Source: Pachyseris speciosa
Lineage: Eukaryota > Cnidaria > Anthozoa > Scleractinia > Pachyseridae
Direction of reading: 5' to 3'
NCBI GenBank assembly: GCA_016490735.1
Contig: JAEMWC010001218.1
Span: 146,501 to 210,500, forward strand
Length of the DNA: 64,000 nucleotides
Both the position numbers and the translations under genes were made by a program. Below are positions 30,635 to 31,081 of the stretch, one piece after another. Numbering within the stretch: position 1 is the stretch's first letter; the number at the start of each line of letters is the position of its first letter. The notes beneath the pieces are model-generated. The model did not search any database. It was not told the DNA's origin and was given only the letters and a program-made list of their open reading frames with translations.

Positions 30635-30664
30635 ATTAACCCAAAAAATAATTCAATGCATATG

Positions 30665-30739
30665 TCAGGCTAGCCTGACATACGTATGTTTCGTCCCCGC
30701 CAAGGGACTCATCAGAGACCTTTCGGTGTAGCCAACTCG
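30665..30739 (-). ncRNA. Hammerhead ribozyme, left arm
   Basis: On the minus strand the left arm repeats the motif order of the right arm: a GGCTA..GGTCT stem I strand, CTGATGA, stem II GTCCC/GGGAC, GAAA, stem III CATAC/GTATG, and cleavage after GTC at 30677. Stem III has almost no loop. Such minimal forms usually work as dimers. Confidence 0.75.
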
Positions 30740-30980
30740 TCAAACATTGCGTTTGAAGTCCCGCCAGCAATCAAATGATGGTGGCAATCTGGCCTTATAC
30801 CTCATAAGGATTCCCAATTGCATAACGTGCCGATAAACAACTATTGAAATTGTAAAGAATAATTACAATTTCAATAGTTGTTTATCGGCACGTTATTCAA
30901 TTGGGAATCCTTATGAGATAAAAGGCCAGATTGCCACCATCATTTGATTGCTGGCGGGACTTCAAACGCGATGTTTGACG

Positions 30981-31053
30981 AGTTGGCTACACCGAAAGGT
31001 CTCTGATGAGTCCCTTGGCGGGGACGAAACATACGTATGTCAGGCTAGCCACG
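30981..31053 (+). ncRNA. Hammerhead ribozyme, right arm
   Basis: Core CTGATGA lies at 31003-31009. Stem II is GTCCC (31010-31014) with GGGAC (31021-31025) and loop TTGGCG. GAAA is at 31026-31029. Stem III is CATAC/GTATG with no real loop. Cleavage is expected after GUC at 31041. Stem I pairs GGTCT with AGGCT, then GGCT with AGCC across a bulge in the 5' strand that could make the tertiary contact. All invariant core positions are present. It is type I by topology. Confidence 0.8.
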
Positions 31054-31081
31054 TTAATATGCATTGAATTAACCCAAAAAA

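Follow-up and report, generated by a model that had tools for sequence, protein, structure and literature searches.

Architecture of the palindromic insertion

The 64,000-nt stretch of the coral Pachyseris speciosa analyzed here (contig JAEMWC010001218.1, positions 146,501–210,500; referred to as the window, in whose numbering all coordinates are given) contains a near-perfect palindrome at 30649–31071, built of inner arms, a short centre and outer arms, apparently inserted in a single event and with a ribozyme sequence in each arm. The inner arms, each a hammerhead-bearing unit (30668–30855 on the minus strand and 30863–31050 on the plus strand), are 188 nt long and complementary at 184 of 188 positions (98%, 4 mismatches), with a 7-nt spacer, AGAATAA (30856–30862), at the junction of the two copies. 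The left outer arm, TAATTCAATGCATAT (30649–30663), which forms the tail end of the left copy, is complementary at 15 of 15 positions (100%) to the right outer arm, ATATGCATTGAATTA (31057–31071). Between inner and outer arm lies a block specific to each side, GTCA on the left (30664–30667) and ACGTTA on the right (31051–31056), the latter reading TAACGT as its reverse complement. Arm-to-arm differences comprise the four substituted positions among 188 and this GTCA/TAACGT block. Each arm measures ~205–210 nt, the GC content of the palindrome is 0.44, and the 188-nt pair is the longest of 10 inverted pairs in the window (at least 40 nt, at most 2000 bases apart), the next being 76 nt. Together with the left block GTCA, the neighboring bases form a perfect 22-nt palindrome (30661–30682) that matches itself and, in predicted folds, sequesters the cleavage site on the minus strand.

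A 14-bp direct repeat, ATTAACCCAAAAAA, brackets the palindrome (30635–30648 and 31068–31081); at window composition, the chance of one fixed 14-mer match is 1.4e-8. The final four nucleotides of the right outer arm, ATTA (31068–31071), belong equally to the repeat, so the target duplication measures 10 to 14 bp. The window has 57 listed open reading frames (ORFs) of at least 100 codons; none of that length crosses the palindrome. The first-pass annotation of this DNA had described a palindrome with one hammerhead on each strand, framed by a 14-bp duplication and acquired in one piece as a unit devoid of protein genes; each of these points is supported by the arrangement above, with the lower bound of 10 bp added to the duplication. 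The central sequence AATTACAATTTC and the right outer end GCATTGAATTA also have AATTA in common, a coincidence whose chance we estimated by hand at a few per cent.

Each arm further contains TTGACGAGTTGG (30975–30986 on the plus strand, 30743–30732 on the minus strand), which differs at two positions from the RNA polymerase III A-box consensus. No B box was found at up to two mismatches.

Candidate hammerhead ribozymes in the arms

One hammerhead core lies in each arm, on opposite strands and close to the arm's outer end. The plus-strand copy (30984–31051) comprises the core CTGATGA (31003–31009), GAAA (31026–31029) and the cleavage triplet GTC (31039–31041), with the predicted cut between 31041 and 31042. 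Its stem II (31010–31025) pairs GTCCC with GGGAC around the 6-nt loop TTGGCG, and stem III (31030–31039) is formed by CATACGTATG. Stem I (30998–31002/31042–31046) pairs GGTCT with AGGCT and, beyond a 9-nt one-sided internal loop, continues into a distal part (30984–30988/31047–31051; TGGCT/AGCCA). The minus-strand copy (30668–30733, limits set by symmetry with the plus copy) has its CTGATGA core at 30715–30709 and GTC at 30679–30677, with a predicted cut between 30677 and 30676 and four pairs in the distal stem I. Both copies show a 5-bp stem I, a 5-bp stem II, GAAA, a short stem III and GTC, and both have the layout by which type I hammerheads are defined (CUGANGA...GAAA...UH, stems I–III, open at stem I). 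The claim of a full core with stems I and II in each arm was thus accurate. That of a very short stem III holds in part: the stem is short, but its three pairs beyond A15.1–U16.1 and palindromic ACGU loop mean that it is not minimal.

Taken alone, the string CTGANGA...GAAA is not rare, and the window has 16 such sites. When at least three pairs were required in stem I, at least three in stem II and at least one in stem III beyond A15.1–U16.1, together with a UH cleavage dinucleotide, two sites were left, one per arm; the same strict scan gave two matches in total across 100 random 64-kb sequences with the window's first-order statistics. Because the arms are copies of each other, the two sites count as one event. 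A covariance-model search, put forward in the first-pass annotation as a check, did not confirm the hammerhead: the Rfam scan returned no family at its gathering score, and RF00008 reached 17.9 of the 48.5 bits needed, equally in both arms. All 32 rows reported by cmscan (microRNA and other families) fell under their gathering scores, and we read most of them as by-products of the long hairpin. From core and pairing, we infer that the arms carry type I hammerheads with predicted activity.

Predicted folding of the ribozymes and the transcript

In local context, adopting the active fold was predicted to cost 3.7 kcal/mol for the plus copy and 13.4 kcal/mol for the minus copy. The minus copy is, in these models, further compromised by the local 22-nt palindrome, so that the two ribozymes are not predicted to be equivalent. 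A transcript spanning the locus was predicted to form a hairpin of −379.1 kcal/mol (30649–31071) or −379.9 kcal/mol (30635–31081), and enforcing the plus ribozyme within the full transcript would cost ~111 kcal/mol. On this modeling, read-through transcription should leave each ribozyme paired with its own antisense, silencing both in cis.

Activity as a dimer, which the first-pass annotation had expected given the short stem III, was rejected for cleavage in cis at this locus because the ribozymes are encoded by different strands and the whole locus, once transcribed, is predicted to fold into a hairpin, the pairing with antisense carrying the ~111 kcal/mol penalty given above. The part of that claim concerning direct repeats of the arm unit fares better by analogy with the axolotl hammerhead Amex2, which has a two-pair stem III with a tetraloop and was termed "similar to invertebrate HHRs" (hammerhead ribozymes; PMC7229834). 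The Amex2 monomer was 22% cleaved in an hour and its dimer performed much better (PMC7229834), so that direct repeats of the arm unit may need dimers to cleave. Given its three-pair stem III and palindromic tetraloop, the present unit may also cleave as a monomer, and efficient cleavage is reported for most invertebrate retrozymes (PMC7229834).

Sequence relatives and surroundings

Relatives were sought in viral (IMG/VR) and bacterial and archaeal genome collections. Since these hold no animals, an absence of relatives there is no evidence of rarity. The hammerhead pattern occurred at 21 IMG/VR loci and on three bacterial or archaeal genome contigs, which we took, by context, as phage or bacterial hammerheads. 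When 46 loci were compared with 30601–31120 (E ≤0.05), nine of these 24 matched, only over a 28–29-base stretch of the core, and the remaining 15 did not; at E ≤1, the 24 yielded one further weak match, in the flank (E 0.98). Another locus shares only 18 nt with the arm, in sequence taken as coding. None of the 21 loci with a common 16-mer matched 30601–31120 (E ≤0.05), and the other arm-derived patterns gave no loci in the viral and the bacterial and archaeal collections.

Elsewhere in the window, 10 ORFs were submitted to Pfam. Six matched a family (one tyrosine-recombinase-like, one PLA2-like, two HARBI1-like, one TGF-beta-like and one Myb/SANT-like), and four had no family match. The HARBI1-like ORF at 53407–53928 shares 94% identity with a protein of Montipora capricornis, the best among the matches listed (120 of 529, few of them named). 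Taken by itself, this match would suggest an acroporid coral, although a transposon gene says little about species. The minus-strand ORF 9211–10410, with DUF3504 and phage-integrase matches, is probably a tyrosine-recombinase transposon. Within 50410–51692, the ORF 51128–51430 has a PLA2-like domain (PF08398), and its neighbor 50410–51084 lacks a Pfam match; a PLA2-like domain is found in some viral capsid proteins, and these ORFs could be an endogenous viral relic. Tandem arrays of a same-looking 66-bp unit, with 97–98% matches, occur in opposite orientation at 46962–47742 and 62984–64000, the latter overlapping the end of the TGF-beta-like ORF 62575–63039 (PF00019), which the minus-strand ORF 23841–24374 resembles by eye. 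Two other close inverted repeats (8699–8882 and 16613–16840; 76 and 67 nt, 97–99%) are perhaps miniature inverted-repeat elements.

Comparison with known systems

Metazoan retrozymes are non-coding repeats of ~170–400 nt with type I hammerheads, for which Penelope-like elements (PLEs) are strong candidate mobilizers (PMC7229834). In Acropora millepora they form tandem units of ~220–245 bp, from dimers to 62-mers, within a genome holding more than 6000 hammerhead motifs, 1508 of them canonical (PMC7229834); repeats in Nematostella have 15-bp duplications (PMC4918200). By description, the insertion resembles the metazoan non-LTR (long terminal repeat) retrozymes (Cervera and de la Pena, 2020; PMC7229834) in its short non-coding unit within ~170–400 nt, type I hammerhead, low GC content and long target duplication, and its ~205–210-nt arm comes close to the A. 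millepora unit in length. The likeness to retrozymes suggested in the first-pass annotation therefore stands, whereas a ribozyme-only element with a presumed dependence on PLEs has precedents in the metazoan retrozymes described between 2016 and 2020 (PMC4918200, PMC7229834). The difference lies in arrangement: retrozymes are described as tandem direct repeats (PMC7229834), and the units at this locus are inverted. Retrozyme circles are, moreover, described as strongly self-paired, whereas the circle predicted here is not clearly more structured than shuffled sequences.

The rotifer Adineta vaga offers a second comparison. Its Penelope elements have inverted pseudo-LTRs (pLTRs), most often in head-to-head order, with palindromic junctions and duplications of 8–10 bp that are absent in some copies (PMC3846280). 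The present locus shares the head-to-head order, arms of ~200 bp, a short duplication and a palindromic junction (PMC3846280), where head-to-head orientation assumes a tail downstream of the hammerhead. The rotifer pairs, however, flank a coding element or captured DNA (PMC3846280) and nothing lies between the arms here; the hammerhead here also has a stem III. PAc of Anolis (PMC11167929) is similar in having a hammerhead in its repeat, a copying start downstream of it, an AT-rich target and both strands cleaved and extended, but the word palindrome is absent from that paper. Hammerheads on both strands also recall the viroid-like RNAs of the Avsunviroidae, circular RNA replicons with hammerheads in both polarities; here, in contrast, both polarities stem from a DNA palindrome and are known from DNA alone. 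Passages of PMC8490949, PMC11722881 and PMC6431247 describe no palindromic retrozyme, and among the titles listed from the literature on hammerheads, retrozymes, Penelope and inverted repeats none announces one, a search mostly at title level and hence not proof of absence. The locus departs from these systems in its inversion, where retrozymes are described as tandem, and in being a ribozyme-bearing, body-less insertion, where the inverted PLE ends on record accompany something.

Origin of the palindrome

We tentatively favor a reading that stops just short of probable, in which one PLE-type insertion placed two ~205–210-nt copies of a hammerhead RNA head to head with their tails outward. The unit would be a non-coding, metazoan-retrozyme-like RNA with a type I hammerhead close to the 3′ terminus. 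A PLE-type enzyme would cut the two strands of an AT-rich target at staggered positions, and both exposed 3′ ends would prime reverse transcription, using separate RNA templates but the same start in the tail. The stagger would become the 10–14-bp duplication, and the two cDNAs would join at the 7-nt centre. This draws on a purified PLE protein that cuts the two strands of its target and extends both, favors AT-rich DNA and begins copying inside the RNA (PMC11167929). Finding the same 15 nt at both ends beside the duplicated target is expected if copying always began at one point on the RNA. On the right, the 3′ TAAT of the nicked strand may have paired with the 3′ AUUA of the RNA, which would account for the 4 nt common to right arm and duplication; there is no such pairing at the left end. 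If the hammerhead lies upstream of the tail, as in PAc, the tails face outward and the 5′ ends abut in the middle, giving the head-to-head order. As the arms span the predicted cleavage site, the template would have been uncleaved or re-ligated RNA. The common AATTA hints that one lap of a circular RNA was copied, for which circular folding gives no clear support. The arm differences (4/188 and GTCA/TAACGT) fit two different template RNAs.

Several points weigh against this reading. Only one copy is known, the differences between the arms could instead reflect later mutation, and deriving a palindrome from two-sided priming is our own extension of an in vitro result (PMC11167929). In the same study, PAc hammerhead mutants still inserted in vitro, so a role of the ribozyme in insertion is not implied; the PAc hammerhead also needed protein to cleave. 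A six-frame scan of the window with crude patterns found no PLE, with no GIY-YIG motifs and two reverse transcriptase motifs, both LINE-like (long interspersed nuclear element) by eye. The circular fold of the 206-nt right unit was equaled or exceeded in stability by 60 of 100 shuffles, while that of the 204-nt left unit was slightly better than shuffles, 6 of 100 being equally or more stable. The tail was predicted to pair weakly with the region upstream, 93 and 289 of 2000 shuffles doing equally well. For four isolated ribozyme pieces, 75, 25, 69 and 76 of 200 shuffles were equally stable or better, and the complete hammerhead was the minimum-energy fold in none of the four. Because Rfam scores are below gathering and isolated folds do no better than shuffles, the hammerhead identification rests on core and pairing.

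A first rival is self-priming, in which one cDNA of a PLE or retrozyme, or else antisense RNA, formed a fold-back, copied itself and was then inserted. Self-priming on antisense RNA is the authors' preferred account for head-to-head rotifer Penelope copies (PMC3846280), and the short 7-nt centre resembles a fold-back loop. It implies, however, that the arms were identical at birth, so that the block difference (GTCA/TAACGT) and all four substitutions would have arisen later, and by itself leaves unexplained why the same tail nucleotide stands at both ends beside the target duplication; we regard it as rather unlikely. The structure of the hammerhead, in turn, speaks to the idea that the arms are the inverted pLTR pair of a coding PLE now lacking its body, through loss or incomplete copying, which we consider unlikely. 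Inverted pLTRs of 181–218 bp with 8–10-bp duplications are on record (PMC3846280), pLTRs carry hammerheads (PMC7761336), and the locus likewise combines inverted arms in head-to-head order with a short duplication of the target, of 10–14 bp against the 8–10 bp of the rotifer (PMC3846280). Yet PLE hammerheads are described as minimal, lacking stem III or loop–loop contacts (PMC7761336), whereas the one found here has a three-pair stem III with a loop and a 9-nt internal loop in stem I, and the crude six-frame scan revealed no PLE motif in the window.

How the duplication is counted matters for a third account, a Mutator-like, non-autonomous DNA transposon of the cut-and-paste or fold-back type, with long inverted ends and the hammerhead present by descent or chance. 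Long inverted ends and duplications of 9–11 bp are typical of Mutator-like elements. Taken as 10 bp, and only then, the duplication fits that range and perfect 15-bp inverted ends bound the palindrome exactly; other inverted-repeat stretches are also present in the window. The additional ATTA match is then left to chance (~0.275^4 = 0.006) and a full hammerhead in each arm goes unexplained; we hold this origin to be quite unlikely. Near-perfect palindromes are, finally, a familiar artefact of long-read libraries, and the locus might be an assembly or sequencing error from a fold-back read. Over 500 bases on each side, neither flank is an inverted copy of the other, which argues against such a read; the direct repeat at the ends and the divergence of the arms, in substitutions and in a block, likewise speak against it. 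We consider an artefact hardly credible.

Significance

How PLEs insert, and why inverted copies are frequent, is unsettled, with self-priming on an antisense template (PMC3846280) competing with extension of both strands as seen in vitro (PMC11167929). The compact insertion described here, with two full units, a common start at either end and a clear target duplication, is read differently by the two models: self-priming predicts arms from one template, and two-sided priming allows two. Going further than the two-sided insertion that we favor, the palindrome might itself be the mobile form, a two-headed retrozyme giving nearly the same transcript from either strand, a proposal we hold to be improbable; a milder one is that such palindromes are footprints of two-sided target-primed reverse transcription by PLEs. 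Were it a two-headed retrozyme, read-through from either side would yield a long hairpin, with a hammerhead close to the 3′ end, that could be excised and inserted anew in one piece; were such palindromes footprints, they would account for the long-known inverted repeats of PLEs. If the family proves numerous in acroporid genomes, comparing copies arm by arm would separate the two models of PLE insertion, and retrozyme-like units would not need a tandem arrangement to move.
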